Origin: a virus | Strand: one strand, 5' to 3' | Length of the DNA: 37,538 nt | IMG/VR virus record: IMGVR_UViG_3300031758_006648 | Span: 1 to 37,538 of that record | Part shown: positions 2,901 to 33,226 of the stretch, piece after piece | How positions within the stretch are numbered: position 1 is the stretch's first letter | Layout: the number at the start of each line of letters is the position of its first letter | Notes under the pieces: generated by a model | What the model saw: only the letters and a program-made list of their open reading frames with translations | What the model was told of the DNA's origin: nothing | Database searches by the model: none | Position numbers and translations under genes: made by a program

Positions 2901-2906
2901 AATCGA

Positions 2907-3998: not shown

Positions 3999-4002
3999 AA
4001 TA

Positions 4003-4923: not shown

Positions 4924-4931
4924 ATTGTATA

Positions 4932-4939
4932 TAAATATA
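4932..4939 (-). promoter_or_regulatory. Candidate -7-like element (TATATTTA)
   Basis: In the gap 4924-4956 the minus strand reads AAAAAAGATATATTTATATA just before ATGAATATG. A similar A-tract followed by TATATTTAT stands before the gene starting at 5715. There is no TTGG at the -33 position, so this is a weak candidate for a second class of promoter used by the structural-type genes. Confidence 0.3.
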
Positions 4940-4956
4940 TCTTTTTTATATTAGAA

Positions 4957-5715: not shown

Positions 5716-5722
5716 AAATATA
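5715..5722 (-). promoter_or_regulatory. Candidate -7-like element (TATATTTA) at the gene start
   Basis: The minus strand reads TAAAAAAGATAATCATATATTT running into the first ATG. The TATATTTA overlaps the ATG at 5715, so if it is a promoter the real start is the second ATG (5709). It resembles the leader of the gene starting at 4923. Weak candidate. Confidence 0.25.
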
Positions 5723-5734
5723 TGATTATCTTTT

Positions 5735-7317: not shown

Positions 7318-7319
7318 AA

Positions 7320-8195: not shown

Positions 8196-9064
8196 CGTAT
8201 TATTTTATTGTATAATTCAATGTGCTGTTTTGCTACATTTTTTGAATCACATAGTTCTTCTATGTTTTCAGGTTTATTTATATCAATTGAAACAATGTCA
8301 CCATTTTGATTAATAATATACATATACCCATTTACTCCACAACACCAACCTTCTAATGTTGTTCTCCCTAAAAGAATTCCCGCAGTAAAATCCATATTTT
8401 TTACTACGTTTTCAGTATCCCATCTTTTATCTATGTATTTGATGTTGGGGTGGTTAAAATTATATTTGCTTTCGCTCATCAAATATAAATCCCAATCTTT
8501 ATCTATACAGTTTTTTACTAAATGGGAGACTGCTTTAAATCTTATATTATCTAAAACTTCTCCAACAAATATTCCTGTTTTCTTACTATACTTTGATTTA
8601 TCTTTATCATTAAACCTATCTCTATCTATGGGATTATAAATTAGTGATATATCAGTTGGATTAATTTTATAATTATCTATTAATGATTTTTTAATTGGCT
8701 CTCTTATAGCGATATAGTGATTTATTCCTTTATTCAAAATAGGAGTTTCACTTCTTATTTCCGAATGTATAATGCTTATTTTCGGTATATTATTATTAAA
8801 GTATTTTAATATAAATTGGTTTACCTCTGGCTGGCTTGCTACTATTAAATCGTAATTTTGATTTACATCTATATTATGTAAGTCGCATTGTTTAACATTA
8901 TTCTCCTCTAATTTTCTTCTTACTAAATCACCCCTATCAATGTCTCTTAAAGTAAAAAGGGTTACATCGATTCCTAATAGATTTAATTCTCTGGCTAATT
9001 CATAATGATATAATTCACTTCCCCCTAATCCATTTACATTTAAACAACTCAATAAAACTTTCAT
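8192..9064 (-). CDS. GT4-like glycosyltransferase (GT-B fold), short
   Basis: A 290-residue protein. The N-terminus has the GT-B acceptor-site pattern NVNGLGGSELYHYELAREL (9-27), as in GT4 enzymes. Residues ~161-185 (KTGIFVGEVLDNIRFKA) mark the start of the donor-binding half, and LLGRTTLEGWCCGVNGYMY near the C-terminus occupies the place of the GT4 ExxxxxxxE nucleotide-sugar motif, with one clear Glu. At 290 residues it is shorter than typical GT4 enzymes (~350-400), the C-terminal lobe being reduced. ATGA overlaps at both ends place it tightly in the glycan operon between FkbM and the epimerase. Confidence 0.78.
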   Translation of the reverse strand: MKVLLSCLNVNGLGGSELYHYELARELNLLGIDVTLFTLRDIDRGDLVRRKLEENNVKQCDLHNIDVNQNYDLIVASQPEVNQFILKYFNNNIPKISIIHSEIRSETPILNKGINHYIAIREPIKKSLIDNYKINPTDISLIYNPIDRDRFNDKDKSKYSKKTGIFVGEVLDNIRFKAVSHLVKNCIDKDWDLYLMSESKYNFNHPNIKYIDKRWDTENVVKNMDFTAGILLGRTTLEGWCCGVNGYMYIINQNGDIVSIDINKPENIEELCDSKNVAKQHIELYNKIIR

Positions 9065-9696
9065 AAATTTAATTTAAAAATTACATTTATCAGGTTATCA
9101 AATATTATATCATATTTTTGATTTAGTGAATTTATAGCGTTTTGTAAAATAGGGGTATTACCATTATATTCAAATATGATAAACTTTGGGAATATATTTT
9201 CATCTATCATCTGATTCAAAACTATTAAATCATTCCCTTCAACATCTATACTTGCTATATCAAAATCCTTATATTTTACTTTTTTAAGAATGTTTGAAAG
9301 AGTAGTAGTTTTAATTATTTCACTATTATAACGAACACCTCTATTCGTTTCCCAATAATTTTTATCAATATGGTTTAATGTAGAAATTTGATTAACACCT
9401 TCATTATGCAGAGAACCTAAATAAATTTCCTTCTCACCCTCTTCTAAATCTATTGCATAATCGAATATAGTTACTTTATCATTTTCTTTATACAATTCAT
9501 TTAATTTATTAACACAATCGGTAGTAGGCTCTATCAACACCGCTTCCCACTCGTAATTCTGAATAAATAATCTTGAATTTGAATATGTTACACCATCATT
9601 TGCACCAACATCTAAAAACGTTCCGCCTCTTTCTAAATTAAATTCCTTTAAGTGTGATAAGATTAATTCATCTTCATTGTGTTGCGAGTATCCCAT
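9061..9696 (-). CDS. FkbM-family SAM-dependent methyltransferase
   Basis: A 211-residue FkbM-type methyltransferase. Starting with YSQHNEDELIL, it continues with the SAM-binding motif TFLDVGANDGVTYSNS (about 26-41), then AVLIEPTTDC (motif II), and DIASIDVEGNDLIVL (motif IV region) and ends with a short beta-strand. FkbM proteins in polysaccharide clusters O-methylate sugars, so the likely role is methylation of a glycan or nucleotide-sugar made by this cassette; a protein or lipid acceptor is not excluded. It joins the preceding gene by TAATG and the following by ATGA. Confidence 0.88.
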   Translation of the reverse strand: MGYSQHNEDELILSHLKEFNLERGGTFLDVGANDGVTYSNSRLFIQNYEWEAVLIEPTTDCVNKLNELYKENDKVTIFDYAIDLEEGEKEIYLGSLHNEGVNQISTLNHIDKNYWETNRGVRYNSEIIKTTTLSNILKKVKYKDFDIASIDVEGNDLIVLNQMIDENIFPKFIIFEYNGNTPILQNAINSLNQKYDIIFDNLINVIFKLNL

Positions 9697-10379
9697 TATT
9701 CTTCAATTAAATCTTTAATTTTATTTACATCATTTAAGAAATCAAATCCTCTTCTATAATCCATATATTTTTGTTGGTCAATATATGCCACCGAAGCCGC
9801 ATCAACATACTGTGAATCTCTTTCCGCTTTACCATTATCAGGATGAATATGTTCAAATACAACATCATCAAAATATTTTATAATTTGGCAACTATTACCC
9901 AAATCTAACCAGAAATTATCTGCATACATATGAATCAGAAAATTCGGCACCATAAATCCTAATTGATTAATTATGTTAGATGTTAGGCAAACTGCGGTAG
10001 GTAGTTTAGCTCCTTGTAACAAATCATTACCGTAAGCTATTCCTATATTATTATTTTCTTCAAAAAATTGTAAAAATTTTGATTCCCATTTTGTTTTAAT
10101 AATATGGTCATCTCCAAAAAATGCTATACATTTATACTGGTTGGCATATTTCAAAGCAATTTGATTAAGTGTTGGAATCATTCTAATACGTGGATTAATT
10201 TCGTATATAACACCGTCTCTAATTGGATACTGATGTGAATCATCATCATCTAATGCTATACATAAATCACTAAACCCTTCGGTATTTTCCTTCCAATTTT
10301 CTATAAACCTATCTACATTAGGGAATCTTTTGCTATCACCACTTCTAGATGGGACTACAATTAGAATTTCTTTTTTCAT
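9696..10379 (-). CDS. GT-A type glycosyltransferase-like protein
   Basis: A 227-residue protein with the GT-A layout of small phage and polysaccharide-cluster transferases: the N-terminal strand ILIVVPSRSGDSKRF (5-19), IALDDDD (41-47), and the metal/nucleotide motif FFGDDHIIKTKW (88-98). A further FWLDLG and HIHPDNGKAERD stretch near residues 157-195 matches the acceptor-side His/Asp region of such enzymes. It is likely a cytoplasmic sugar transferase in the glycan cassette. The donor is unknown. A 4-bp gap separates it from the preceding GT2 gene. Confidence 0.78.
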   Translation of the reverse strand: MKKEILIVVPSRSGDSKRFPNVDRFIENWKENTEGFSDLCIALDDDDSHQYPIRDGVIYEINPRIRMIPTLNQIALKYANQYKCIAFFGDDHIIKTKWESKFLQFFEENNNIGIAYGNDLLQGAKLPTAVCLTSNIINQLGFMVPNFLIHMYADNFWLDLGNSCQIIKYFDDVVFEHIHPDNGKAERDSQYVDAASVAYIDQQKYMDYRRGFDFLNDVNKIKDLIEE

Positions 10380-10383
10380 ATTA

Positions 10384-11007
10384 TTAAATTTTATCGTAAA
10401 AATCGTTTTGTTTTTCTTGTCTTTCTATTTCCTTGTGATGATATAGTGAGTAATTTTCATCTGATGGGAAATTTGTAAAAGTTGTGTATCCGGTTATTCT
10501 TTCATGCACTTTTCCATGCCATTGAACTTCTTCGGTATTTTTGTAAATACGAGTTTGATAATCAGGCCAATTTACCCAACCTTTATCATCAACTTTCCAA
10601 CCCCATTTTTGAATATGTGATTGAGTTAATCCTTCTACGGTATTCACTCTTGGAACAAAAATTATATCAACTTCATTTATAGTCAGAATTTGTTTTAATC
10701 TCTCTAATAAAATTTCCGATGGTTCTTCATCTGCATCAATTTGAAAAATGTATTTTCCTTCACAATGTTCTTTTAGATTATTTTTAAAGGATGCAAAATC
10801 TTTATTAAGAGGAAATGATATAATCTTAATTTGTTTTTGTATATCACTAATTATATTGAGATAATCCACAACTTCTTTTGTAACTGATTCACTATCATAT
10901 TGAATAACAACCTCATCCTCGCTATCTATACGCACGAGGAGAAAGTTAATTAATGAGGTGAGTTCTTTTAACTCATTACAAACAGTTATAGCGTAACTTA
11001 TTTTCAT
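10384..11007 (-). CDS. Family 2 glycosyltransferase
   Basis: A 207-residue GT2 enzyme of the WaaE/KdtX-like short type. It has ISYAITVCNELKEL at the N-terminus, a mid-domain FKNNLKEHCEGKYIFQIDA (74-92) where the acidic DADEE (91-95) binds the metal-nucleotide sugar, and GWVNWPDYQTRIYKNTEEV followed by WHGKVHERI (about 158-180), typical of this subgroup. It would add a sugar to a growing glycan from an NDP-sugar. It starts 2 bp after the Gly/Tyr-rich gene. Confidence 0.85.
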   Translation of the reverse strand: MKISYAITVCNELKELTSLINFLLVRIDSEDEVVIQYDSESVTKEVVDYLNIISDIQKQIKIISFPLNKDFASFKNNLKEHCEGKYIFQIDADEEPSEILLERLKQILTINEVDIIFVPRVNTVEGLTQSHIQKWGWKVDDKGWVNWPDYQTRIYKNTEEVQWHGKVHERITGYTTFTNFPSDENYSLYHHKEIERQEKQNDFYDKI

Positions 11008-11009
11008 AC

Positions 11010-11468
11010 TTAATCTTCGTTGTGGTGTTTTTCAGAATGTTCTTCCGATTGAACCGGCTTATTATTTGTTGAATTTGTATAACTCCAAGCACTACCACTC
11101 GGATAACCATATGCAGTTGATGTACTTCCAAATCCAAATGGTGGATTAGAGTATGTAATAGAACCATATCCAGGCGTAGCTACAATAGTTCCACCACTAC
11201 CAGATGATGTTAGTGTTGTACCATTTGTATCCGGTTGACACGTTATCCTATATGGGTGGTATGGGTCTACATAATGTGGATGTTGCCATACAGGTGTTGT
11301 ATTGGGCGTTCCCCATCCACCTTCTCCAATTGGAGTTCCTATTTTCGGTTCATCACTTACTTCTTTCAATTTATCTTTTAATAAATCCCATTGTTTCGGA
11401 GTAACATTAAATTCATGCACTCCTTCGGTAAATCCTTTTAACCAAAGGACAAATTCTTTAGATGTCAT
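11010..11468 (-). CDS. Small phage protein with Gly/Ser/Thr/Tyr-rich tail
   Basis: A 152-residue protein with two parts. Residues 1-38 form a helical segment (KEFVLWLKGFTEGV, then TPKQWDLLKDKLKEV) of a type I have seen at the start of small phage proteins. Residues ~45-140 are low-complexity, rich in Gly, Ser, Thr, Tyr and Pro; the tail ends His/Glu-rich (EEHSEKHHNED). No enzyme motif. The Ser/Thr-rich tail inside a glycosyltransferase cluster makes it a conceivable glycosylation acceptor, though this is only inference. It could also be a minor virion or assembly protein. Confidence 0.7.
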   Translation of the reverse strand: MTSKEFVLWLKGFTEGVHEFNVTPKQWDLLKDKLKEVSDEPKIGTPIGEGGWGTPNTTPVWQHPHYVDPYHPYRITCQPDTNGTTLTSSGSGGTIVATPGYGSITYSNPPFGFGSTSTAYGYPSGSAWSYTNSTNNKPVQSEEHSEKHHNED

Positions 11469-11470
11469 AA

Positions 11471-12160
11471 CTATGTGTTTGGTTGTGATGTCTGATTAAT
11501 TACTTCTATTTTTTCCGCAATACTCTCAGGCGGTGGTTCTAAATTAATTTCTTTTTGTTTTATTATCTTTTCGACCTTCTCTTCCTTTTTTAACTCCTGT
11601 GGAGTTTGTTTAGGTTTTTCTAATTTCTTCTCCTCATCAATTTTCTCTTTATTAGTATAACCTCTAATCATTTTTGATTTTATATAAGACTTAGTTAATT
11701 CAACTTCTTCAACTGATCTTATTGAAGCCATTTTGTATTCTCTATAATTACCATCGTATATTAAAGGTTTCTTTTTTAAGATTGTAAATAGAGGTTTACC
11801 ATCTAATGGAAATTGTCTTAAAAGAAATCTAAACTCTTCTGCTTCATCAATTTTTTGTTCACTAATTGAATCAGTAGCCGCTTCTAATGCATAAAAGAAA
11901 TTACGAGGATTTACATGCTTTAATTTTAGTGCAGGAAAATAGTAATGAATCATACCTTTTTCATCTTTACCTCTAAATTTTCCTATTAAAAAAATGTAAG
12001 TAGTATCTAATCCTGCCAAAACTTTTGTTTGAGATGGGTCCGCATATTTATAAACTTGTATTTTGTAAAAATTACCAGGTTTCATAATAGTTGTCGAAAC
12101 CTTTCTACTTGTCTTAAACAATTTTCCCCATAGAGGTAGATATATCCTAGATTCTGCCAT
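11471..12160 (-). CDS. Unrecognised phage protein with charged Pro/Glu/Lys tail
   Basis: A 229-residue protein I do not recognise. The N-terminal ~165 residues look like a folded alpha/beta domain (YKIQVYKYADPSQ, TYIFLIGKFRGKD, MIHYYFPALKLKHV). The last ~60 residues are disordered-looking, rich in Lys, Glu and Pro, ending SQPNT. No signal peptide or membrane segment. It lies between two glycosyltransferase groups, 3 bp after one and 2 bp before the Gly/Tyr-rich gene, so it is co-transcribed with them. T4-like phages often have such a conserved protein near structural genes, so a virion role is possible. Confidence 0.65.
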   Translation of the reverse strand: MAESRIYLPLWGKLFKTSRKVSTTIMKPGNFYKIQVYKYADPSQTKVLAGLDTTYIFLIGKFRGKDEKGMIHYYFPALKLKHVNPRNFFYALEAATDSISEQKIDEAEEFRFLLRQFPLDGKPLFTILKKKPLIYDGNYREYKMASIRSVEEVELTKSYIKSKMIRGYTNKEKIDEEKKLEKPKQTPQELKKEEKVEKIIKQKEINLEPPPESIAEKIEVINQTSQPNT

Positions 12161-12163
12161 TTT

Positions 12164-13399
12164 TTAGAATTCTGGTAGTATTAAATCAACATGCTTTGCA
12201 ACCTTTATATGTCTATCACAAATACCTTTTAGGGCCTCTGTCATTTTATTATGTGAAAACTTATTTATATTATCCCTACCTAATTTTTTAGATTCGGAGA
12301 GGTATTTATCATAATTATTAAACACATCAATTAATTTGAAAGCCGCATTACTATAATTTACATAAAACCATTGTGATTCAGGTAATAAAAATTGATTTGA
12401 AGCTGATGGGTCTACATTTTTTAATTCACCATCTAATAATACTGATTGTTTATCATTTAGAAAATCTAATTGACCACTCCAACCACTACTTATTACTGGT
12501 TTTCCTGTCATACTAAATTCTAATAGAGGTCTTCCAAATCCTTCACCATGTGTAAATGAGATAGTCGCTTTTACTTTTGGATGATTATATAACTTCCACA
12601 TATCATCAGGTGTTAAATCACCATGTATAAGATAAATTGAAACATCACTCTTAACCTGAGATGCTACCTCTTCAACTTTTCGGAGAATTTCTTCTCTATC
12701 TCTAATTGAAAATCCCGCTGATGAGGTTTTGAGTATTAGGGCAGGTTTCTCACCCTTCGTTCTACTAAATGCAGAAAGAAATGTTTGAATCATTCCGCCT
12801 ACATCTTTTCTATCATGATAAAGATTTCCTTGTAACCAATGGCCTACGAATAAGAAACAAAAGTTTTCTTTAATAGAATCTAATTTATCCAAACCATCTA
12901 ACTCTTTGTAATCAGTTCCTTCAAATAAAACTTCTACCGGCTTTGAAACTCTATGTTCGGTTATTACCTGTTGAGTGGTTTTATCCCTTTCTGTCCATTG
13001 TGTCCCAGCTATACCTGATTTAGAATGCTGTGAAGTTGTAATAACCAAATCCATTCGGTTACACCCATCAACCCAATCCTTCGGTATTACAGTCGTTTCA
13101 ATTCCAGCGGTAACCCCTATATTAAATTTTCCTACTTGTTGAAATTCATTTGGAACTGTCATCTGAACATATACATCAGGTTGTATATTTATTTCACCAA
13201 CAATATTATCTAGTATCCATTTATGAAATTCATCGTTTGGATTAAGTTGATCCATAGGGGTTGCTCCCCATCTCGTTGAAACAATCTTAATGTCATAATA
13301 ATCTAAATCTCTAAATGATTTGAGTAAATCTCTTGCATGATCTCCATATCCACTCCTAGTCGCTATTGGAGCTTGATATAATAAAAATGGTTTAGCCAT
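12164..13399 (-). CDS. GT4 glycosyltransferase (GT-B fold)
   Basis: A 411-residue GT-B glycosyltransferase. The N-terminal acceptor domain begins FLLYQAPIATRSGYGDHARD (5-24), the Gly-rich loop of GT4 enzymes. The donor domain contains FLFVGHWLQGNLYHDRKDV (182-200) and the E-x7-E motif HGEGFGRPLLEFSMTGKPVI (Glu286 and Glu294), which binds the NDP-sugar. Full length for the family. It lies 7 bp after a second GT4 gene and starts a run of co-directional glycan genes. Retaining transfer is expected for GT4; donor and acceptor are unknown. Confidence 0.88.
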   Translation of the reverse strand: MAKPFLLYQAPIATRSGYGDHARDLLKSFRDLDYYDIKIVSTRWGATPMDQLNPNDEFHKWILDNIVGEINIQPDVYVQMTVPNEFQQVGKFNIGVTAGIETTVIPKDWVDGCNRMDLVITTSQHSKSGIAGTQWTERDKTTQQVITEHRVSKPVEVLFEGTDYKELDGLDKLDSIKENFCFLFVGHWLQGNLYHDRKDVGGMIQTFLSAFSRTKGEKPALILKTSSAGFSIRDREEILRKVEEVASQVKSDVSIYLIHGDLTPDDMWKLYNHPKVKATISFTHGEGFGRPLLEFSMTGKPVISSGWSGQLDFLNDKQSVLLDGELKNVDPSASNQFLLPESQWFYVNYSNAAFKLIDVFNNYDKYLSESKKLGRDNINKFSHNKMTEALKGICDRHIKVAKHVDLILPEF

Positions 13400-13406
13400 T
13401 CGTAAC

Positions 13407-14792
13407 TTATTTTATTTTATATAATTCAAATCTTTCTTTTGGTTTCCAATTTTCAAAGGCCCTTTCCATCCCTTTAACCATTTCATCCGCCATTCTTTGT
13501 GAATAGAATCCGTTTTCTGAAAGGATGAACTCTCTACCTTTTAATCCCATTTCTTTCCTTTTTTCTTTCGGAATGTCATACCAATACTTAAATGCATCTG
13601 CTAATTCATATACATCTATTTTATCATCTATGATGTAAGGAGTTGGAACTGAACCGTTCATATTTTGAGCCCTTGCCCACAATGGCTTAACCCATTCTCC
13701 ATGCTCTACTTTATCTTCCCATTCTCTCCAATCATGCAAAGAACCAATCTTAACATAATCTTCTGCGGTTAATAACTTTCCATCCAATTTAAATCCACAT
13801 TGGTCTTGCAAACCACCTGTCACTAATAAGATAGATGGAACACCTGCCATTATACCTTCACAAGTCGTTAGGCCAAATCCTTCATTACCGGCAATGTTCA
13901 CCGATACATCACAAAGATTTAGTAATTGATTTATTTGTTCGGTAGATAATCTATTCGTTGAAAATTTAATTTCTGCATCAGGTGCTAATCTTTTTGCAAC
14001 GGCAACTAAATCAGTTCCATTTTCATCGACCGGCTGTGTATGCATCAATAACATCACCTTCTTTCTCTTTTCCTCCGGTAATTTATCTAAAAACTTTTGG
14101 AATGCCCAAATAACATCTGATGGTTGTTTTCTACGAATGTTTCTATTTGACCAATAAACTACGAATTCGTAATCATTACCTGCAAATAGTTTTTGTTTCA
14201 ACTCATCACTACTATCTTCTAATGGTTTATACAATTTTGATACACCATGTGGAACATAACTTACTTGCCAATCTTCCAACGGCTTCCAAGTTTTCCCATT
14301 TTGTAATGCACCGGTTCTTTTAACAATGCCATAAGTTTGCTTAGAGATACAACCCAACCAATCACAACTTTCATAGTAATCTCTATTGTAGTGTGGATCT
14401 GGCAAATCATCCCAAATATGGTAGAAGAAAATTGGACAAGTTTGTCGAATTTCATGCTCCATATCATACAACCAAATCCAATAACGAGGGTCGGTAAAAT
14501 GTAGGATAGCATCTATTTTGTGTTTAGATAATAGGTTTCTAATTAAATCCGCATTACCATATCCACTATTAGGATAAAGTATTACACTAGCATCTTCAAC
14601 ACCACTATGCTTTTTTACATCATCGGATACATCAATTATTTTCCCAACTTCGGGATGTTGAACGGCTGCTGCAACCTGAATCCAATTGTATTTGCTTACG
14701 GAACCTAAAACTATTTCTTTTGACATAGTAGCTATACCACTATGCATTCTTAAATCATCTGATAGAAGAAGAATTGTTTTTTTATTATTCAT
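13407..14792 (-). CDS. GT4 glycosyltransferase (GT-B fold)
   Basis: A 461-residue GT4-type enzyme. The N-terminal loop is LLSDDLRMHSGIATMSKE (9-26). The donor domain has FVVYWSNRNIRRKQPSDVIW (210-229) and the E-x7-E motif in GNEGFGLTTCEGIMAGVPS (Glu304, Glu312). The core is slightly longer than its neighbour, with an aromatic-rich mid-region (DPRYWIWLYDMEHE). Both adjacent GT4 proteins use the same fold with low identity, so they may add successive sugars. It is the first glycosyltransferase of the cassette, 3 bp after the ribbon-helix-helix gene. Confidence 0.86.
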   Translation of the reverse strand: MNNKKTILLLSDDLRMHSGIATMSKEIVLGSVSKYNWIQVAAAVQHPEVGKIIDVSDDVKKHSGVEDASVILYPNSGYGNADLIRNLLSKHKIDAILHFTDPRYWIWLYDMEHEIRQTCPIFFYHIWDDLPDPHYNRDYYESCDWLGCISKQTYGIVKRTGALQNGKTWKPLEDWQVSYVPHGVSKLYKPLEDSSDELKQKLFAGNDYEFVVYWSNRNIRRKQPSDVIWAFQKFLDKLPEEKRKKVMLLMHTQPVDENGTDLVAVAKRLAPDAEIKFSTNRLSTEQINQLLNLCDVSVNIAGNEGFGLTTCEGIMAGVPSILLVTGGLQDQCGFKLDGKLLTAEDYVKIGSLHDWREWEDKVEHGEWVKPLWARAQNMNGSVPTPYIIDDKIDVYELADAFKYWYDIPKEKRKEMGLKGREFILSENGFYSQRMADEMVKGMERAFENWKPKERFELYKIK

Positions 14793-16231: not shown

Positions 16232-16689
16232 TATTTCTTTTTGGTTTTAGTTTTTGTAGATTTTTTTTCTTTTTCTACTTCTCCATACTTTGTTTTTAAG
16301 TAAGTGAAGTATTCATCACCTTCTTTGATATGAGTGAGAATGTTGTAGTAATCAATTGCTGTATTTTTTGAACAATTGTATTCTACCATAATCAATTCTA
16401 CTAATTTTTCATTAGCAGATTCCTCACTCTTTCCCTTAATATAACGAAGGTATTGCTTTCCTTTCGGTAAAACTCCTATCATAAAAAGATAGTAAAGTTT
16501 AGGCTCCATTGTTTGAGTTAATGGTTGAAATTGGGCAATGGTTTCTACAAAATCATAGTTCATAGAAAGAAATCTATGAATCATATAATTACTCCAAGTC
16601 TTTAAATCTTCTTCGGATAATTTATCGAAGTAATTAGGATCTTGGTCTTTTGTTATAGCGTTAAGATGGTCGAAAAGCGTTTTAGCCAT
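16231..16689 (-). CDS. 62: Clamp-loader small subunit (T4 gp62-like)
   Basis: A 152-residue protein with the T4 gp62 pattern: an N-terminal helical part (LFDHLNAITKDQDPNYF), LPKGKQYLRYIKGK (84-97, where T4 has PRGKRYGKWAK), and VEYNCSKNTAIDYYNILT (111-128, where T4 has YQVNTNDAINYKSILT), followed by a basic tail (KKSTKTKTKKK). gp62 is the non-ATPase subunit that with gp44 loads the gp45 clamp. T4 has 44 and 62 adjacent; here the ATPase is ~6.5 kb upstream, at 23193-24137. The family call rests on my alignment by eye. It joins the nucleosidase and nuclease genes by TAATG junctions. Confidence 0.75.
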   Translation of the reverse strand: MAKTLFDHLNAITKDQDPNYFDKLSEEDLKTWSNYMIHRFLSMNYDFVETIAQFQPLTQTMEPKLYYLFMIGVLPKGKQYLRYIKGKSEESANEKLVELIMVEYNCSKNTAIDYYNILTHIKEGDEYFTYLKTKYGEVEKEKKSTKTKTKKK

Positions 16690-17261
16690 TATCCAGCAAT
16701 ATATTTGTTATAAAATTCTAATTTAAATTGAGAATACCCAATTCTGCAGTTTTTTTCCCAATCATCCATCCCACCATCATCACTTACCCATTTGTAAGAA
16801 ACTATCGGTATTTTGAACTCTTTGCAAACTCTCGTAATTGAGTATAATTCCATTTCAAATATACTACATTTATTTAACAATTCCAACTTTTTAGGGGGAA
16901 AGTTTTTAACCTTTTCCTTCGTAATAAAGGTTTCGGATGTGAAGCAGCTAACTCCTTCATTTTCAATCTCTAAATAATCCCCATCCTGGTCGAAAGGGGT
17001 GATAGAATAGGGAACTAATGGTTCTGCATCCATATCACCATTATATACATCTTTAACCTTTAATAACATACCCTTATCCATACTAAAACTCCCACAGCTA
17101 CCAAAATTACAAACTAAATCAGGTTTGTGTTCCAATATGCCCATAGCCGTTTTATATCCAGCGTTTATCTTTCCAACGCCAGTATGAATAATCGGATAAT
17201 CAAACAAAGTATCATATCCATCTGATTCTTCTTTTAATGCACAAACAAATAATACTTTCAT
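16689..17261 (-). CDS. MTA/SAH nucleosidase-like protein (PNP_UDP family)
   Basis: A 190-residue member of the nucleoside phosphorylase/hydrolase fold. The N-terminal CALKEESDG holds Glu12 (proton relay in MTAN), HTGVGKINAGYKTA (26-39) and PDLVCNFGSCGSF (47-59) form the ribose/phosphate region, FEMELYS (135-141) is the M-E motif binding ribose hydroxyls, and SDDGG (160-164) supplies the catalytic Asp161. It is somewhat shorter than bacterial MTAN (~230). It would split 5'-methylthioadenosine or S-adenosylhomocysteine to adenine and ribose derivatives. With four DNA-type methyltransferases and FkbM in the window, removal of SAH is a sensible job. Other purine nucleosides are possible. Confidence 0.82.
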   Translation of the reverse strand: MKVLFVCALKEESDGYDTLFDYPIIHTGVGKINAGYKTAMGILEHKPDLVCNFGSCGSFSMDKGMLLKVKDVYNGDMDAEPLVPYSITPFDQDGDYLEIENEGVSCFTSETFITKEKVKNFPPKKLELLNKCSIFEMELYSITRVCKEFKIPIVSYKWVSDDGGMDDWEKNCRIGYSQFKLEFYNKYIAG

Positions 17262-17593: not shown

Positions 17594-18496
17594 TTATTTT
17601 TTAATGTTTCTTTTTAATACTTCAAATATTTTTTCGTGTCCATTTTCATTAGGATGACACGGATCGGGAGTTCCATAAGGTCTATCCGGCATTAACCATT
17701 CTTTCCATATAGTTGTATCATTACCACTATATAATGGTTCAATTAGAACATCAGTTATTTTATTTTTTTCATCTATCTCATCGATGAAGAAAAAGTTTTC
17801 ATCTTTAAAAGTGTTATAAAAGCAATTTTTAATTTCACTTTCCTCTGTCAAAAATCTTACCATCGATTTAGCGAAAAATGTAGAATTCCCTACATAATAA
17901 TCTTTGTAATTTAGTTTATATCCCATAATAGGAATTGGTATATCAAAGAATAAGTGTTCTATCTCATTTTTTTCAAACCATTTGTGAACTAAATAAATCG
18001 AATAACTGTTTTGTTTAAATAACTCTTTTAGATAATCAACCCATTTTGTGTGGTCAAAATCTTTTTTGTAATGCCAATACTTTCTATTGTAGAAATTTTC
18101 GTATTCAGTCCAATAACCTACCCAATCATCTATTCTTAAAATCTCTTCCTTTTCCCCATACTCTTCTCTAAAATCATCAACCCTAAAGCTATTAGAGTTT
18201 ACTTCTTTAAAAAATCTATTACCATAAAAAGGATTAGGAATAAGGTCTTTATCTATTTGTCTTTCGAAATATGTAGTCTGAAATAATACCAAACTATTCT
18301 TATAAAATTCTATTGGTTTATTCATTAGAGTATTACTCCCTACTATATTACCTGCACCACTAATTGATAGGTTAATTAGTGGAACTCCTAACCAATCAGC
18401 AATTCTTTGCCCATAGATTTTATTCTTATCAGCATTTAATCCATAACTGATAGAACAACCCCATAATATAACTTTATCTATTTTTCCCATATCCAT
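17594..18496 (-). CDS. SGNH/GDSL hydrolase-like protein
   Basis: A 300-residue protein with SGNH ends. Block I is ILWGCSISYGL (10-20), in which Ser15 replaces the usual GDS nucleophile context (GCS). The C-terminal block V has Asp278-x2-His281 (DPCHPNENGHEKI), a good catalytic dyad. Between them is a long aromatic-rich region unlike typical SGNH proteins. It could be an esterase or acetyl-hydrolase, or a non-catalytic relative. It overlaps the methyltransferase upstream by 19 nt; the start ATGGATATGG lies within that gene's final IWIW codons, so the ATG at 18490 is an alternative. Confidence 0.72.
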   Translation of the reverse strand: MDMGKIDKVILWGCSISYGLNADKNKIYGQRIADWLGVPLINLSISGAGNIVGSNTLMNKPIEFYKNSLVLFQTTYFERQIDKDLIPNPFYGNRFFKEVNSNSFRVDDFREEYGEKEEILRIDDWVGYWTEYENFYNRKYWHYKKDFDHTKWVDYLKELFKQNSYSIYLVHKWFEKNEIEHLFFDIPIPIMGYKLNYKDYYVGNSTFFAKSMVRFLTEESEIKNCFYNTFKDENFFFIDEIDEKNKITDVLIEPLYSGNDTTIWKEWLMPDRPYGTPDPCHPNENGHEKIFEVLKRNIKK

Positions 18497-19701
18497 ATTG
18501 GTTCTCCAAATGCTTGATTTTTTCCTTCTTCCGCTTGCTTCTTTGAATCATCTGAATAATAATCACTTACGGCAGTTCCAGCACCTCCGCTGTTGGGTCT
18601 TTTCGTCATTTCCATGCCAATACACCCTCTATATTTTAACCCCCTAGAATGGAGGAAATCATTCATAGCGTTGGTTATATCTACATACCCACCATCAGGT
18701 GCAGAAAACACATCTGAAATGTTTACGGCTAAGATTCCACCCTTCTTCAAAGTCGGAATCATTTTCTCTAATGCCTTATGTAAAAAATTAGTATTCCAAT
18801 CATCTATTTTTTTATATCTCAAATAAGATTGAGTATCGTGATCTGAATACCTTTCAGTATTGAAGTAAGGTGGTGAAGTAAAAATTGTATCAAAATAATT
18901 TTCATATTCCGAATAATCTACATCTTCCGCCGGTTGTGGAATAAATGTAGCTCTTTTTTCACTCTCAAAAAATGTTTGATTAAACTTATAGTATTCTTCT
19001 TGCAAAAGATAGTGTTGATGATTATTTAAGTTCGGGTCTATACCAACATAATGTTTAGTATTATCACCCGCATAAAATCCTGCAAATCTATCACCCCATC
19101 CTGCCGAAAAATCTAAAATGTATTCGGATTTAAAATAATCGTAAAGTGCTTTTGCAACATTTGGTTTGAATTGAGATGCTACATATTTTCTCAAATTCAT
19201 CGCCATCTTTAAGGTATTAATGCTTACATCAGTTAAAACCTTATCTAATGTAAAGAATGCTCTTACAATGGTCTTTATTCCTTCAACTGTCTGCCACGTT
19301 CTCCAACCGGATGGGCCTCTTACCCAATCAACTTTATATCGGTTCTCTACGTGGAATTTATTGGATGCTTTATTACCAACGGTATACTTTTTGAAATACA
19401 TAAACTTACCATCAAATGTAAGTGGGTATTTACTCTCTCTACCATTACGAGGAAACCAATTACCTTCAATCAATATATCAGGCCACCAAGTTCCTTTTAA
19501 TTTTTTGTAATCTTCTAATACCTCTTCATTAGTATAAACCGGTATAGGTAATGGATATGTATGACAGACTTCTGATAGGGTTTCTATAATTTCTTCTTTA
19601 TCATAAGTTTTTAAAATATATGCCCACTCCTCCTCATCAATAGTGAGGTATGGTTTCATATCATAAAACTTACTAAAGTATTCTTTTATAGTTTTCTCCA
19701 T
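18478..19701 (-). CDS. DNA methyltransferase-like protein with TSPPY motif (paralogue 1)
   Basis: A SAM-dependent methyltransferase of 407 residues from the ATG at 19701 (409 if the TTG at 19707 is used). Residue numbers here count from the TTG. Motif I is LDFSAGWGDRFAGF (198-211), GIDPN follows at 222-226, and the catalytic motif IV is FTSPPYFNTERYS (276-288), as in amino-methyltransferases of the N4-cytosine/N6-adenine type. The N-terminal ~180 residues contain KKLKGTWWPDIL and GNWFPR, an unfamiliar domain shared with the upstream paralogue. The order I then IV with TSPPY is unusual for beta-class enzymes. It probably methylates DNA bases, though other targets are open. Confidence 0.82.
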   Translation of the reverse strand: MEKTIKEYFSKFYDMKPYLTIDEEEWAYILKTYDKEEIIETLSEVCHTYPLPIPVYTNEEVLEDYKKLKGTWWPDILIEGNWFPRNGRESKYPLTFDGKFMYFKKYTVGNKASNKFHVENRYKVDWVRGPSGWRTWQTVEGIKTIVRAFFTLDKVLTDVSINTLKMAMNLRKYVASQFKPNVAKALYDYFKSEYILDFSAGWGDRFAGFYAGDNTKHYVGIDPNLNNHQHYLLQEEYYKFNQTFFESEKRATFIPQPAEDVDYSEYENYFDTIFTSPPYFNTERYSDHDTQSYLRYKKIDDWNTNFLHKALEKMIPTLKKGGILAVNISDVFSAPDGGYVDITNAMNDFLHSRGLKYRGCIGMEMTKRPNSGGAGTAVSDYYSDDSKKQAEEGKNQAFGEPIWIWEK

Positions 19702-20915
19702 ATCCAAATAGGTTCACAAAATCTTTTACCTTCCGCTTCCTTTGCTTTTTCTAATGCCTCTTCGGTATAACGGTCTTCATCACCTTCAATAATTGCCCCC
19801 GCTCCTGCTGAACCAGGTCTCTTTGCCATCTCCATGCCCAAACATCCTTCGTATTCCGCACCTAATGTTTGGATATAATCATTCATTGGGTTTGTAATTT
19901 CAACATAACCCTTTTCTCTATCATTTGATTTAGCATAAACATCTGCAATGTTCACTGCCAAATAACCTCCTTTACGAATAGTTGGCCATAAGTTATGAAT
20001 TACTTTATGTAAAAATTGTTCATTCCATGCATCAATAGATTTATATCTTACCCAACTTTGAGTATCATCATAAGAATACCTCTCAACATTAAAGTAAGGA
20101 GGTGATGTAAATACTATATCAAAATGGTCGGTATATTGTGAAAAATCTAAATCTTCGGCAGGTGAGCAATGAAAATCTGCTTTCTTTTCTATTTCAAAAA
20201 ATGTTCGGTGTTTTTCATACCAATCTGCTTGCTGACGATATATCGGGTGATTTTCTTTTCTAGGGTCTACGCCTACATAATGCTTTCCGGTTTCACTTGC
20301 ATAGAATCCCGCTAAACGGTCTCCCCATCCTGCTGAAAAATCTAATACATTCTCTACTTTAAGATAATCGTATAATGCCTTTGCCACATTAGGTTTAAAT
20401 TGTGCACAAATGTATTTTCTTAAACCTAAACAAGTTCTCAAAGAGTTTCTATCTATCTCATCAAATTTAAGAGTATATAATCCACCCATAAGTGAAACCA
20501 TAAACTCTCTTGTTTCCCAAGTTCTTTTTGGGCCAGGTGAAACGGTACCGTCTACACTCCAACGATTTGCCTGTTGGAAAAAATTAGAGGATTCATTACC
20601 AACATTATTTCTACTGAAGTATTGTTGTTTACCTCTAAATGTTATTGGGTATCTGCTTTCTGATGCTTTTCGTGGAAACCATTCTCCTTCTTTAAGAATG
20701 TCAGCCCACCATGTACCTTTTAATTTCTTATACGCATCTAATACTTCTGCATCAGAAATTTGTGCGTAAGGTATTGGGTATTCCATAAGAATGTCGGCCA
20801 ATGTTTCCTTAACATCATTAATATCGAATGTATTTTTTATATACGTCCACTCCTCTTTACCTATGTGTAAGTAAGGAGTCATTCCCTTAAATTTGTCGAA
20901 ATAATCTAAATACAT
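19686..20915 (-). CDS. DNA methyltransferase-like protein with TSPPY motif (paralogue 2)
   Basis: A 409-residue protein collinear with the next gene: KKLKGTWWADIL (63-74), EWFPRKASESRYP (78-90), FKPNVAKALYDY (173-184), motif I VLDFSAGWGDRLAGF (190-204), GVDPR (215-219), motif IV TSPPYFNVERYS (270-281), and EPIWIWRKL at the end. This shows tandem duplication followed by divergence. It overlaps the GNAT gene by 29 nt and the next methyltransferase by 16-22 nt, suggesting coupled translation. Role as for its twin: SAM-dependent modification, most likely of DNA. Confidence 0.84.
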   Translation of the reverse strand: MYLDYFDKFKGMTPYLHIGKEEWTYIKNTFDINDVKETLADILMEYPIPYAQISDAEVLDAYKKLKGTWWADILKEGEWFPRKASESRYPITFRGKQQYFSRNNVGNESSNFFQQANRWSVDGTVSPGPKRTWETREFMVSLMGGLYTLKFDEIDRNSLRTCLGLRKYICAQFKPNVAKALYDYLKVENVLDFSAGWGDRLAGFYASETGKHYVGVDPRKENHPIYRQQADWYEKHRTFFEIEKKADFHCSPAEDLDFSQYTDHFDIVFTSPPYFNVERYSYDDTQSWVRYKSIDAWNEQFLHKVIHNLWPTIRKGGYLAVNIADVYAKSNDREKGYVEITNPMNDYIQTLGAEYEGCLGMEMAKRPGSAGAGAIIEGDEDRYTEEALEKAKEAEGKRFCEPIWIWRKL

Positions 20916-21468
20916 TTCTTATAAAGTTATATTTTTTATTATCAATGATGGTTTCTATATTTTTATGAGCCGGTAATCTCAACTTATAAATTGAGCCAGA
21001 AATAAATCCTTCTTTTTTACCATGCCACATTTCACTATTTTCATCTACTAATTCAAACCCATTTCTTTCGTAAAATTTTCTAGCTGTTTCGTTTGCAGTT
21101 CTAACTGATAGAATAATGTTTTCACATTGCTTTGATTTACAATACTCTACAAACTGATTAAATACTTTTTGAGCAGAACCATTTCTTTCTTTTGATGCTA
21201 TTTGGTGAATAATCATATCACCTTTTTTCTTTCTAGCAAATGTCTTTCTTGCAATCTTAGAATTACCCTTGCTTTTCTCAAAGGTTATAACTACGCCATC
21301 TTGCAATACTACACCACCATTAGGTTTATTAAAGTATTTTTTCAACTTAAATCCTTGTCCAGCCAAATGGGGAAATACTTTTGGATATAAATCAATTATT
21401 TCCATTGCTTCTCTGATGGCTGCATCCATTTCATCACCCTCATTTTGTATATTAAGTATTCTAACCAT
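20887..21468 (-). CDS. GNAT-family acetyltransferase
   Basis: A 193-residue GNAT protein. The central fold shows MIIHQIASKERNGSAQKVF (85-103), the acetyl-CoA pyrophosphate loop region with R/N-G-S-A in place of the classical Q/RxxGxG/A, then a beta strand NIILSVRTAN and the helix ETARKFYERNGFELV typical of motif B. It overlaps the asparagine synthetase gene by 8 nt and the methyltransferase by 29 nt, so it is made with them. Substrates could be a protein, an amino group on a modified base (compare Mom, a GNAT-fold DNA modifier of phage Mu), or a small molecule; this cannot be decided here. Confidence 0.85.
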   Translation of the reverse strand: MVRILNIQNEGDEMDAAIREAMEIIDLYPKVFPHLAGQGFKLKKYFNKPNGGVVLQDGVVITFEKSKGNSKIARKTFARKKKGDMIIHQIASKERNGSAQKVFNQFVEYCKSKQCENIILSVRTANETARKFYERNGFELVDENSEMWHGKKEGFISGSIYKLRLPAHKNIETIIDNKKYNFIRNVFRLFRQI

Positions 21469-22921
21469 TTATTGAGAAAAATTTATTAAGTAGTATATCA
21501 TTCTTATACGAATATAAGGATTTTAATTGAGATTTCAAAGTATCTTTACGAAGTTCCATCATATCACCGGTTCTACAGCCTTTTGCAAAGTAAACCTTAG
21601 GTCTATAAAGAAGTTCATCTGAAATCTCTCCCTTAAATGCTGCTCTTAATAAGGGTTTCATATGTCCACCTTCTTTTTGATAAAGGGGTGGAATGTTTAG
21701 TGTATATTCTACAAACGGTCTCCAACTATAAGGAGTTCTAACCTCTACGGTTCCACCCCACATAATAGATTGGTTCGTTGTTAGAAAGTTTGTTTTATGA
21801 ACATCTTCTACTAACTTTCTTCTTGCCTTATCGTAATCTTCCGGTCTCCAATGAAACGCCTGAATATGTCCATAACTTCCCCATATCTCATCTGAAAGGT
21901 CTCCACTAAACACAACTTTAAATCCTAACTCATTTATTTTTTTGGATAGGGCTATTTGTGCAATCGCTGAACCAACATTTTGCCATCTACTTTGTTCAAT
22001 CACATAAAGTGTTTCTTCAATTGCATCTTCTACATCTTTTTCAGTCAATATAATTTCATGCAACTTAACACCGAATTCTTTTGCAGCAATTCGTGCATAT
22101 TTTATATCATCGTTCTTTGTATCACCATCTCCCATTGAAACTACAAATGCCTCAATGTCAGGCTTAATACGCGAAAGTATATAAGTTGTAATTACTGAAT
22201 CAATACCACCGCTTAGAATTGTGCAAATGGGAACATCTGAAACCATCTTTACTTTTACGGCTTCTTCTAACATTTTTCTAATGTTATTGACAATAGTTTC
22301 TCTATCATCATTTATTATTTCAGTTGGAAGTTTGTAATAAGTTTGGGCTGAATGTTCTAATGTTTTGTAATTATATTCTAAATAAGTACCAGGATAAATT
22401 GCCTTTACTTGTGTATCATATAAATCAGTAAGTGGAAGGCCTTTCTTTTCGGAACAAAATACTAACTTACCATCGTTATCAATCCCATACCAAAGTGGAA
22501 GTTCACCTACATAATCTCTAACTACAAATACCTTATCTATTTTAGTATCAACTATTGCAAATGAAAACATACCATCTAATAACTCAAATGATTTAGTTCC
22601 AAATTCACAATATGCGTTTAAAATTATTTCAGTATCAGATTTAGTTTTGAACTTTGTTTTTAGAGATGACTTCAATTCTTTAGTTTCAACGCTATCCCAA
22701 AGTTCCCCATTATATACAATACAAACCGTCTTATCTTCATTCCACATTGGTTGATTCGCAGTTGAGGAAAGGTCTTGTATTGAAAGGCGGTTATGCCCTA
22801 CATAGATGTCATCAATTACATCTACAATAGAAGCATCTCTACCTCTATGAATTATTTTTTGTAAATGGTCTTTGGTTTGCTTTATTGATGTAAACCAATT
22901 ACCTCCTATTATTCCGCACAT
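21461..22921 (-). CDS. Asparagine synthetase B-like glutamine amidotransferase
   Basis: A 486-residue AsnB-type enzyme. The N-terminal class-II glutaminase has the nucleophile Cys2 (MCGIIG), HRGRDAS (25-31), Arg45 in GHNRLSIQD, YNGELWD (70-76) and Asp96. The synthetase half has the PP-loop LSGGIDS (236-242) and VFSGDLSDEIWGSYGH, the equivalent of the LSGEGSDE loop. It is shorter than E. coli AsnB (~554) but has both sites. It would transfer glutamine ammonia to an adenylated acid: aspartate, or another carboxylate in a modification pathway. It joins the small membrane protein by TAATG and the GNAT gene by an 8-nt overlap. Confidence 0.9.
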   Translation of the reverse strand: MCGIIGGNWFTSIKQTKDHLQKIIHRGRDASIVDVIDDIYVGHNRLSIQDLSSTANQPMWNEDKTVCIVYNGELWDSVETKELKSSLKTKFKTKSDTEIILNAYCEFGTKSFELLDGMFSFAIVDTKIDKVFVVRDYVGELPLWYGIDNDGKLVFCSEKKGLPLTDLYDTQVKAIYPGTYLEYNYKTLEHSAQTYYKLPTEIINDDRETIVNNIRKMLEEAVKVKMVSDVPICTILSGGIDSVITTYILSRIKPDIEAFVVSMGDGDTKNDDIKYARIAAKEFGVKLHEIILTEKDVEDAIEETLYVIEQSRWQNVGSAIAQIALSKKINELGFKVVFSGDLSDEIWGSYGHIQAFHWRPEDYDKARRKLVEDVHKTNFLTTNQSIMWGGTVEVRTPYSWRPFVEYTLNIPPLYQKEGGHMKPLLRAAFKGEISDELLYRPKVYFAKGCRTGDMMELRKDTLKSQLKSLYSYKNDILLNKFFSING

Positions 22922-23193
22922 TAAAACTTTTCTTTTTTCTTAAAGTATTTGAGGATTATTATCTTACCAATAGAGCCAGATAAAAGAAATAGGATAATTG
23001 TAACCCAATCACCCTTTAAAAAACTATCTACTGAATACGCGGTTGATGCAATCCAAAAGGCAGTTTGTATATTAAATAATAAAACTGATTTTGTTATATC
23101 ATTTTCAACTACCCATTTTATTTCTAAAACTTTAAATACGGCTAACGCTAATTGAGAAAATACAACAAATAAATAAACTAAAAAATCATTCAC
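22921..23193 (-). CDS. Small multi-pass membrane protein
   Basis: A 90-residue protein with three hydrophobic segments (about 3-20, 36-53, 62-82) and a basic tail (KYFKKKEKF). The pattern, with EIKWVVEND between helices and GSIGKII near the end, resembles small DUF5698-type membrane proteins, but I am not sure. The start is GTG at 23193, overlapping the clamp-loader stop by one base; no in-frame ATG exists near the start. Located between replication and modification genes; function unknown. Confidence 0.65.
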   Translation of the reverse strand: MNDFLVYLFVVFSQLALAVFKVLEIKWVVENDITKSVLLFNIQTAFWIASTAYSVDSFLKGDWVTIILFLLSGSIGKIIILKYFKKKEKF

Positions 23194-30722: not shown

Positions 30723-31781
30723 TTAGTTTTTTTTGTTAAAAATAAAGATAGGTTCGTATTTTATACCCTTCCCAGCAATACTGGATAATGCAAGTTTTAT
30801 TGTTTTTTCTAATACAAATCCTTCTTCTTCCGCTACTCTAATCGTTTCACTTTCTATATCTTTATGTTTAGGAGTATTTGCTATATTTAATAACATTTTA
30901 CCCCCACTTTTTAAGCCAATATGACAATTTGCCATAGTTTGTTTTAAAAATCCATCCACCCATAAATGTGGTGTAGGGTATTTTTTATATGATTGGGTTT
31001 CCTCATCACTATATTTTTCAGTATCGAAATAAGGTGGTGAAGTAAAACACAAATCTAATGAATCTTTTTCTGGTACGAATACTTCCGAACCTAATTGGTG
31101 GAGTATAACATTTTTACCATAAAAATTTAGGTCTTTATTTAATTTACCTAATCCCTCATAAGTTTTACCGCTAGGATCAGTTCCTATATACGTTTTACAA
31201 TTACTCGTTAGGAATCCAATTAATCTACCTCCCCATCCACAACTCATATCCCACACGGTCTCCCCACCATAGTTATTATATATCCATTTAGCAGCCGAAG
31301 GTCTGAAATTACTGACAGTTTGGTTGCCACCATATATTTTGAAATTTTGTCTTAAACGATTTAGGGTAAATTTACCATCACTATGTTTAAGATGCCAATT
31401 CCAAGTCTTTCTAATAATTTCTTTGAACTTACTATCATCATTCCAATAATCAATTGGTTTCATTTTACTATTACCACATTGAACATCTATCCAATGGGGA
31501 AAATAACTCCATGCCAATCCTAAACAATGCATTGTTTGGTCAATATAACCATCTTTAAATAAAGTTGATTCATCAAACTCACTTAAAGATTTCATATCAC
31601 CAATCATATTATCGGTGGTTGAATGGTAGTGAGGAAATCCTTTTTTTCGATGATACTTAAAAATTATATCTAATGCTGATTGAACATCATCTATTTCTTT
31701 TATATTTTGAGTTATTCTTTCATACTCTAAATCTAACTCATCCCATTCTATAAACTTAGCAAAAGTATTATAGTTTATCAT
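30723..31781 (-). CDS. DNA methyltransferase-like protein with TSPPY motif (paralogue 3)
   Basis: A 352-residue relative of the two genes at 18478-20915. It shares NFRPSAAKWIYNNY (158-171), motif I VWDMSCGWGGRLIGF (176-190), GTDPS (200-204) and motif IV FTSPPYFDTEKYS (246-258), but its N-terminal ~150 residues differ and lack the KGTWW block. All core motifs are intact. It likely methylates an amino group in DNA. It overlaps the small conserved gene by 14 nt and ends before the gap upstream of nrdB. Confidence 0.82.
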   Translation of the reverse strand: MINYNTFAKFIEWDELDLEYERITQNIKEIDDVQSALDIIFKYHRKKGFPHYHSTTDNMIGDMKSLSEFDESTLFKDGYIDQTMHCLGLAWSYFPHWIDVQCGNSKMKPIDYWNDDSKFKEIIRKTWNWHLKHSDGKFTLNRLRQNFKIYGGNQTVSNFRPSAAKWIYNNYGGETVWDMSCGWGGRLIGFLTSNCKTYIGTDPSGKTYEGLGKLNKDLNFYGKNVILHQLGSEVFVPEKDSLDLCFTSPPYFDTEKYSDEETQSYKKYPTPHLWVDGFLKQTMANCHIGLKSGGKMLLNIANTPKHKDIESETIRVAEEEGFVLEKTIKLALSSIAGKGIKYEPIFIFNKKN

Positions 31782-32065: not shown

Positions 32066-33226
32066 TTATCCAAAAAATTTATTTACCGTTTCTTTTAATT
32101 TAGGGGTTACTTCTACTTTTTTACCTTTTTCTTCTTTGTATGGATTGCCGATTTCGTAATCTATTCTAGTCTCTGCAATTTGAAAATATTCTTTTTCTCT
32201 TTCAATGCCAATGAAGTCAAATCCACCTCTTACTGCCGCTTTACCAGTTGAACCACTACCCATAAACGGGTCAAGAGTTGTTCCACCATTTGGTGTTACT
32301 AAACGGATTAGGTATAACATTAAATCAGTTGGTTTTACGGTTGGGTGTGTATTATCACCTCCTTCATTTCTATCACCCTTTGATGCTTTCGGGCAATAAA
32401 AGAAGCGTGATGCGGCTTCATATTGTTCATCTAATATCTTACCTGCTTCTTCATCAAAGATTACATTAGCAGGAAATCTACCAGTTGGATTATAGTTTTG
32501 TGGTTTTAACATTGAGTAATCGCCATAGATTTGGTTTGAACCCATTGTGCTACCGAAATCAGCGTGTTGGTTTTTGTTAATGCTCTCTGCTTTATCAGCT
32601 TCACTTACAAAATCAATTCTACTATCATCTATGTTTACACCACCGACACCCCATTCTAATACATTACCTGCTACGTTACCCTTGAAAGGTTTTCTTGCCA
32701 TTACTATTGGTTCGTGTGCGGGTTTTAATGCAGTTCCCCATCCCTCCCATTCGTTATTTATAATTTGTTGTGTAGTATCATTCTCTATATCTGAACTAAA
32801 CATTCTACCTTTTTTATAATCAATTTGACCGGTTGGTTTATAATCGTTACCCATTCTTGCTTCACGTAAGGCCTTTGGATTTGATTTGCCGGTCTTTTCT
32901 AATGCATCTACTGCTTTACCGATGTTATGTGATTTTGGAAACCCACTACCATATATCCACATAATCTGGTCTCTAATCTCAAACCCTGCATCTTCAATCC
33001 TTACTGCCATTCTGTGATAAGTTCTACTACCTGCGAATGATAATAAGTGTCCGCCTGGCTTTAATACCCTCATACACTCTTCCCATATAGCCTGTGAGGG
33101 AACATCGTAATCCCATTTCTTTCCCATAAAGGAAAGTCCGTATGGTGGGTCTGTAACAATTGAATCAATAGAGTTATCTTCTAATTCTTTTAGTTTATCT
33201 AAACAATCTCCTAATAGTAATTTCAT
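32066..33226 (-). CDS. Site-specific DNA methyltransferase (N4-cytosine/N6-adenine, beta-type order)
   Basis: A 386-residue DNA amino-methyltransferase. Motif IV TDPPYG is near the N-terminus (25-30) and the SAM site motif I LDPFMGSGSTG near the C-terminus (318-328), preceded by HPTVKP (294-299): the beta-class order. The central ~150 residues (about 100-280) form the target-recognition part. DPPY is compatible with adenine-N6 or cytosine-N4. No restriction endonuclease is next to it, so it is likely an orphan enzyme for anti-restriction or marking. It is not close to the three TSPPY paralogues in motif order. The start lies 3 bp after the helicase stop. Confidence 0.92.
   Translation of the reverse strand: MKLLLGDCLDKLKELEDNSIDSIVTDPPYGLSFMGKKWDYDVPSQAIWEECMRVLKPGGHLLSFAGSRTYHRMAVRIEDAGFEIRDQIMWIYGSGFPKSHNIGKAVDALEKTGKSNPKALREARMGNDYKPTGQIDYKKGRMFSSDIENDTTQQIINNEWEGWGTALKPAHEPIVMARKPFKGNVAGNVLEWGVGGVNIDDSRIDFVSEADKAESINKNQHADFGSTMGSNQIYGDYSMLKPQNYNPTGRFPANVIFDEEAGKILDEQYEAASRFFYCPKASKGDRNEGGDNTHPTVKPTDLMLYLIRLVTPNGGTTLDPFMGSGSTGKAAVRGGFDFIGIEREKEYFQIAETRIDYEIGNPYKEEKGKKVEVTPKLKETVNKFFG

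Follow-up and report, generated by a model that had tools for sequence, protein, structure and literature searches.

A coupled AsnB-GNAT gene pair in T4-like phages, possibly a DNA hypermodification cassette

Introduction

Do five overlapping phage genes form one biochemical pathway, and if not, which of them belong together and on what do they act? The question is raised by positions 17,594 to 22,921 of the IMG/VR record IMGVR_UViG_3300031758_006648, a 37.5-kb viral record of a T4-like phage (hereafter the window, meaning the whole stretch of 37,538 nucleotides), which encodes RecA/UvsX-like, exonuclease, helicase, ribonucleotide reductase (RNR), PolB, clamp and clamp-loader proteins. The block comprises an AsnB-type amidotransferase (AsnB1), a GNAT acetyltransferase, two paralogous S-adenosylmethionine (SAM)-dependent methyltransferases (MT1 and MT2) and an SGNH-like hydrolase. 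An earlier note had taken the five for a single modification pathway, possibly for DNA bases or virion proteins. We propose instead that the functional unit is best explained as a two-gene AsnB-GNAT cassette, and that, in the best though unproven reading, this cassette decorates DNA bases to hide the phage DNA from host defences.

Results

Conservation of the AsnB-GNAT pair

On the minus strand the order is gp45, gp44, a 90-residue membrane-like open reading frame (ORF) upstream of AsnB, GNAT, MT1, MT2 and the SGNH-like gene. The features are as follows.

22921..23193, minus strand: predicted membrane protein of 90 residues, the left cassette border in this lineage; no Pfam match
21461..22921, minus strand: AsnB1, AsnB-type amidotransferase of 486 residues, class-II glutaminase plus PP-loop amide-forming domain; PF13522/PF13537/PF00733
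20887..21468, minus strand: GNAT acetyltransferase of 193 residues, the AsnB1 partner; PF00583/PF13673 above cut-off
19686..20915, minus strand: MT1, class-I SAM methyltransferase with a TSPPY motif and an N-terminal part of about 170 residues without assignment; weak PF01555 match, DNA-methyltransferase PHROGs
18478..19707, minus strand: MT2, MT1 paralogue whose linkage to AsnB-GNAT is not strict; PF01555 at its cut-off
17594..18496, minus strand: SGNH-like hydrolase, probably outside the cassette; weak GDSL Pfam match below cut-off

Coordinates and overlaps of the five ORFs, re-derived here, agree with the earlier description, and the catalytic motifs are intact: Cys2 (MCGIIGG) and the SGGIDS PP-loop in AsnB, TSPPYF in both methyltransferases, GCS and DPCH in the SGNH-like protein. 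Purifying selection is strong among close relatives, with dN/dS of about 0.02-0.13.

From IMG/VR we retrieved 80 MT1, 40 AsnB and 79 GNAT loci. In 77 of the 79 GNAT loci AsnB is the gene immediately upstream, and of 39 non-redundant pairs 38 show an overlap of 1-14 nt; MT1 directly follows GNAT in 25 of these 39, and a 67-residue ORF comes between them in one. The pair is found in the orders gp44-TM90-AsnB-GNAT-MT1, thioredoxin-AsnB-GNAT-MT1(-MT2)-gp45-MT'-PolB, HD-like-AsnB-GNAT-...-MT1-PolB and HD-like-AsnB-GNAT-PolB, every one of which falls inside the RNR-thioredoxin/gp45/PolB/gp44 replication cluster. The remaining genes of the block are less faithful. The SGNH-like gene adjoins MT1 in relatives that lack AsnB (L011-L017) and is absent from most AsnB-bearing loci of other gene order; MT2 is missing from the AsnB- and GNAT-bearing loci L015, L018, L019 and L022; and MT1 commonly stands alone between gp45 and gp44.

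The overlaps themselves, 8 nt for AsnB/GNAT, 29 nt for GNAT/MT1, 22 nt for MT1/MT2 (from a TTG start; 16 nt from an in-frame ATG) and 19 nt for MT2/SGNH, are not special: overlaps are common across the window, where other neighbouring pairs share 1, 4, 8, 10, 14 or 19 nt. Genes of the methyltransferase family overlap whatever gene comes next (gp44 in 23/26 cases, the SGNH-like gene in 11/11, another methyltransferase in 25/26), typically by about 19-22 nt, because the codons of their C-terminus, EPIWIW[KR]K, contain an out-of-frame start codon. The last two overlaps of the block are therefore uninformative on a shared pathway.

According to these results, a single five-gene operon pathway is not supported: the SGNH-like gene is kept without AsnB-GNAT, MT2 is missing from some loci with the pair, MT1 is widespread alone and the overlaps after the methyltransferases are generic. 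What stands of the earlier proposal is the AsnB-GNAT pair, which stays together across divergent phages, lies in the replication cluster beside genes resembling DNA methyltransferases, and includes an AsnB whose best relative in an isolated phage belongs to a DNA base modification operon (see below).

The AsnB of the window is 90% identical both to that of L088, a close relative (MT1 97%), and to that of L109, from a distant lineage (MT1 73%, gp45 58%), whereas GNAT identity falls from 96% to about 50% between the two; AsnB has apparently moved between lineages on its own. Among the neighbouring genes, some read by eye as HD-type hydrolases (HHDLGK motif) adjoin AsnB1 and AsnB2 cassettes (L274:2910-3563, L202:8415-9188; AsnB2 is introduced below) and are possibly nucleotide hydrolases. 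Proteins that by eye are ParB-like or DUF262/HNH-like directly adjoin methyltransferases or cassettes at L024:3530-4792, L042:4341-5783, L075:3575-5260 and L281:6166-7704.

Replacement of the pair by other cassettes

In four relatives (L013, L014, L016 and L017) the AsnB-GNAT slot is filled by one gene for a 255-residue fold-type-II pyridoxal-phosphate (PLP) protein (PF00291). When L022, which carries the pair, was aligned with L016, similarity covered positions 1-3995 and resumed at 6001, the gap holding AsnB and GNAT (2,005 bp) against one PLP gene (785 bp). The replacement runs from start codon to start codon: similarity extends to the AsnB or PLP start, the breakpoint lying between the 90-residue membrane-protein gene and AsnB, and resumes at the MT1 start codon. 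Since the two loci align outside the slot, with MT1 identity of 98-100% from one group to the other, the cassettes genuinely replace each other at a single site. A search of 19 AsnB1-bearing records gave no PALP match, the Pfam model missing a 278-residue PLP variant in some records.

A divergent AsnB, here AsnB2, precedes a PLP gene in 64 of 67 loci and usually comes after a thymidylate-synthase-like gene (228-232 residues, PF00303). This trio is conserved in uncultured T4-like phages (67 loci, L166-L232; for example L043:1029-4061), and by eye its thymidylate-synthase-like protein retains a Cys and has Asp at the thymidylate synthase Asn position, as in dCMP-type enzymes; the trio is a candidate for a separate nucleotide hypermodification cassette. 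A third recurrent order, in L136-L165 (for example L146), reads gp45, a 324-residue PLP gene, a 182-residue CxxCxxCC protein, a methyltransferase and gp44; in L141 a radical-SAM/SPASM gene is inserted in it.

All these cassette types adjoin the same methyltransferase family. The data are best explained if AsnB-GNAT belongs to a set of interchangeable cassettes (AsnB1-GNAT; PLP alone; thymidylate-synthase-like/AsnB2/PLP; PLP/CxxC protein) beside a constant TSPPY methyltransferase. However, proximity to a methyltransferase that is near-core in this phage group is on its own no proof of a shared function, and we have discounted the linkage of MT1 to PLP and AsnB cassettes for this reason.

The constant methyltransferase

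MT1 and MT2 are 53% identical. The MT1 match to PF01555 (N6_N4_Mtase; E 3.8e-5) is under the cut-off and that of MT2 at it. SPPYF, the [DNS]PPY motif IV, is invariant across 33 members of the family. The AlphaFold2 model of MT1 (pLDDT 89) has a class-I SAM fold and matched generic class-I methyltransferases and Trm11 in Foldseek, and the transferred group is therefore unreadable from the fold. No MT1 site separates AsnB-bearing from AsnB-lacking relatives. Co-adaptation of MT1 to the cassette was rejected on this ground; the comparison shows only that MT1 is one and the same protein in both groups.

This raises the possibility that the slot beside MT1 is a mere variable hot spot and that AsnB-GNAT is unrelated to the methyltransferase or to DNA. 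Near-identity of MT1 with either cassette, the lack of any MT1 site that tracks the cassette and the occurrence of MT1 alone between gp45 and gp44 all fit this idea, but a small set of enzyme types keeps reappearing in the slot across independent gene orders, and a thymidylate-synthase-like gene repeatedly accompanies AsnB/PLP cassettes. We consider it rather unlikely. It should be noted that our estimates are not strictly exclusive, because the hot-spot explanation concerns linkage to MT1 and the other explanations concern the substrate.

Four genes of the window resemble DNA methyltransferases. Two of them lie apart from the block, near each other: a CcrM-like/phrog_67 N6/N4 DNA methyltransferase at 32066-33226, and a further member of the MT family.

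30723..31781, minus strand: third MT-family paralogue of 352 residues, 29% identical to MT2; TSPPYF and GWGGR motifs

One MT relative belongs to a phage contig that was binned with a Flavobacteriales metagenome-assembled genome (L312), a weak hint that the hosts of these T4-like phages are possibly Bacteroidota.

AsnB1 is probably not an aspartate enzyme

AsnB1 passes the asparagine synthase model TIGR01536 and keeps the glutaminase set Cys1/Arg/Asn/Asp and the SGGxDS PP-loop (as SGGIDS). In all AsnB1 sampled, however, GEGSDE has become GDLSDE (Glu to Asp) and the Arg of TTIRAS is lost (..GSA..). Residues of these two segments act in aspartate binding and activation in the asparagine synthetase B of Escherichia coli, and their alteration suggests that the AsnB1 substrate is probably a carboxylate other than aspartate. 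With the aspartate-site residues replaced, a plain asparagine synthetase was rejected. One could still imagine an auxiliary metabolic gene whose product supplies protein synthesis with asparagine or some other small amide, next to an independent acetyltransferase. The TIGR01536 match and the intact glutaminase and ATP motifs agree with such a role; the replaced residues, a score of 289 against a cut-off of 499 for the asparagine synthase B equivalog NF006949, and the near-absolute coupling to one GNAT family do not, and we regard it as quite unlikely.

No close relative of AsnB1 was found in bacterial genomes in a GTDB contig scan. In isolated phages the closest is gp124 of phage TurkishDelight (30% identity), flanked by a C5-cytosine methyltransferase (gp123, PF00145) and a CmoA homologue (gp125; 25% identical to the CmoA of phage S-B43, E 2e-22, with a TIGR00740 match). 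This layout is that of the CmoA-CmoX-CmoY system of Synechococcus phage S-B43, in which the AsnB-like CmoY ligates glycine to 5-carboxymethylcytosine in DNA, ParB-domain genes accompany CmoX, and a cluster of glutaminase-bearing ligases is predicted to use ammonia (PMC12783734). In a small tree with few outgroups, AsnB1, AsnB2 and the TurkishDelight protein group together (98% bootstrap), outside of which fall E. coli AsnB, the enzyme from a glycan cluster of cyanophage S-SCSM1 and that from a 7-deazaguanine cluster of Achromobacter phage Motura (23% identity).

The GNAT partner

The GNAT protein has the superfamily profile and fold, although it retains little of the canonical acetyl-CoA loop, R/QxxGxG/A. 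Its AlphaFold2 model (pLDDT 79) is nearest in the PDB to RimI, PaiA, NAA50 and NAA60, that is, chiefly to N-alpha-acetyltransferases of the RimI/NAA type. The earlier note had pointed to Mom of phage Mu. Neither BLASTP nor profile comparison detected similarity to Mom, and identity with Mom is ruled out by sequence.

Since the nearest folds act on protein N-termini, the pair might modify a protein, for instance a replication or host protein, AsnB amidating a carboxyl and the GNAT acting as a RimI/NAA enzyme. We know of no precedent for AsnB-type protein amidation in phages, and the AsnB relatives in annotated phage operons sit among base-modification or sugar genes; this makes a protein target very unlikely.

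Alternatively, the target could be a sugar on the surface of the virion or the host, both amidated and N-acetylated. The GNAT weakly matches PseH, the S-SCSM1 AsnB sits among glycan genes, and the window itself has a surface-glycan-like cluster at 1370-14792, with a 2-oxoglutarate-Fe(II) oxygenase, HAD, glycosyltransferases, an NAD-epimerase and an FkbM-type methyltransferase that could serve the pair. However, the phage glycan AsnB is just 25% identical and branches outside, and other gene orders have RNR/thioredoxin on one side of the pair and gp45/PolB on the other, where the neighbourhoods inspected showed no glycan gene. A sugar substrate is therefore, in our opinion, unlikely.

Discussion

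What, then, does the AsnB-GNAT cassette modify? We favour phage DNA bases or their nucleotides, which it may well hypermodify, although we give this slightly less than an even chance. The proposal builds on direct observations: the pair is conserved and coupled, it is swapped cleanly, its catalytic sites are intact, AsnB has lost its aspartate-site residues, and it groups with the enzyme of a CmoX/CmoA operon. The proposal is further favoured by the setting of the Motura AsnB relative in a 7-deazaguanine cluster, by the precedent of CmoY acting on 5-carboxymethylcytosine in DNA, and by ParB-like, DUF262/HNH-like and HD-type proteins, recognised by eye, that turn up repeatedly next to the cassettes. 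Several results weigh against it. In 13 of the 39 non-redundant pairs the gene after GNAT is not MT1 but another gene, often of about 450-600 residues (some resemble ParB or DUF262/HNH proteins by eye), and in one case PolB follows immediately. MT1, being near-core and also found alone, may adjoin the cassette for positional reasons; the AsnB tree has few outgroups; and both the window and S-SCSM1 have the glycan clusters described above. Moreover, the Cx-SAM synthase CmoA (TIGR00740) was found in none of 39 relative records and none of 17 AsnB1/AsnB2 records, of up to 274 kb, although S-B43 and TurkishDelight were detected as positive controls (among control genomes, E. coli alone passed the cut-off), and the C5-cytosine methyltransferase CmoX (PF00145) in none of the same 39, again up to 274 kb. 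The published carboxymethyl handle is therefore not made by these phages, and direct membership in the CmoA/X/Y system is ruled out.

In the mechanism we propose, AsnB1 would take ammonia from glutamine, activate a carboxyl on the base with ATP and form an amide, and the GNAT would then acetylate an amine of the same group. We infer DNA as the target, amidation before acetylation, and a methyltransferase that supplies or shares the handle. As no phage CmoA was found, the carboxyl, if AsnB1 amidates a base, would have to come from elsewhere: Cx-SAM of the host, some other chemistry, or SAM itself through its 3-amino-3-carboxypropyl (acp) group.

The last source leads to a more specific speculation, which we regard as a long shot. 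The TSPPY family might load an exocyclic amine of a DNA base with acp instead of methyl, and the cassettes would then act on the acp group: AsnB would amidate its carboxyl, the RimI/NAA-like GNAT would acetylate the alpha-amine, and in the alternative cassettes the fold-type-II PLP enzymes would act on the alpha-amino-acid centre. CmoA would not be needed. If this were true, the DNA would carry a swappable amino-acid side chain. A methylthioadenosine/S-adenosylhomocysteine-nucleosidase-like protein (PF01048) is encoded at 16689-17261, downstream of the block; it is kept only in the gene order of this lineage and was not used as support.

If DNA is indeed the target, amide-type DNA hypermodification in phages would have a second family, represented by AsnB-GNAT. 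This family would be widespread among T4-like phages not yet cultured, and its cassettes would pass cleanly from one close relative to another, as expected were host defences selecting a new chemical coat; it would also raise the question of the source of the carboxyl handle without CmoA. Should the cassette act elsewhere, the tight coupling of the AsnB1 and GNAT enzymes would still hold.

Comparison with known systems

In our literature search, we found no paper describing this AsnB/GNAT/MT gene set, which nevertheless resembles known systems in part. AsnB1 is 30% identical to E. coli AsnB (asparagine synthetase B) and shares its domain order, glutaminase residues and PP-loop, but differs in the aspartate-site residues, a shorter C-terminus and a near-constant GNAT partner. 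Mom, which modifies adenine in phage Mu, is likewise a phage protein of GNAT fold, with a DNA target that is presumed here, but is unlike the window GNAT in sequence. In phage 7-deazaguanine modification, a class-II glutaminase/PP-loop protein lies within a base-modification operon, as in Motura; however, apart from a weak match of AsnB itself to QueC through the PP-loop, no QueC/QueE/TGT gene was identified among the window proteins scanned, and the Motura protein is the distant relative described above. The CmoA/X/Y system differs in that it relies on CmoA and a C5-methyltransferase, whereas here the neighbouring enzyme is of the TSPPY (N6/N4) type and a GNAT is tightly coupled; a preliminary search by the authors of that system is reported to have found no candidate for a CmoA-associated N6- or N4-carboxymethyltransferase (PMC12783734). 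In both, an asparagine-synthetase-like ligase stands beside a SAM-dependent enzyme resembling DNA methyltransferases in a phage, and the best isolate relative of AsnB1, that of TurkishDelight, sits in such an operon.

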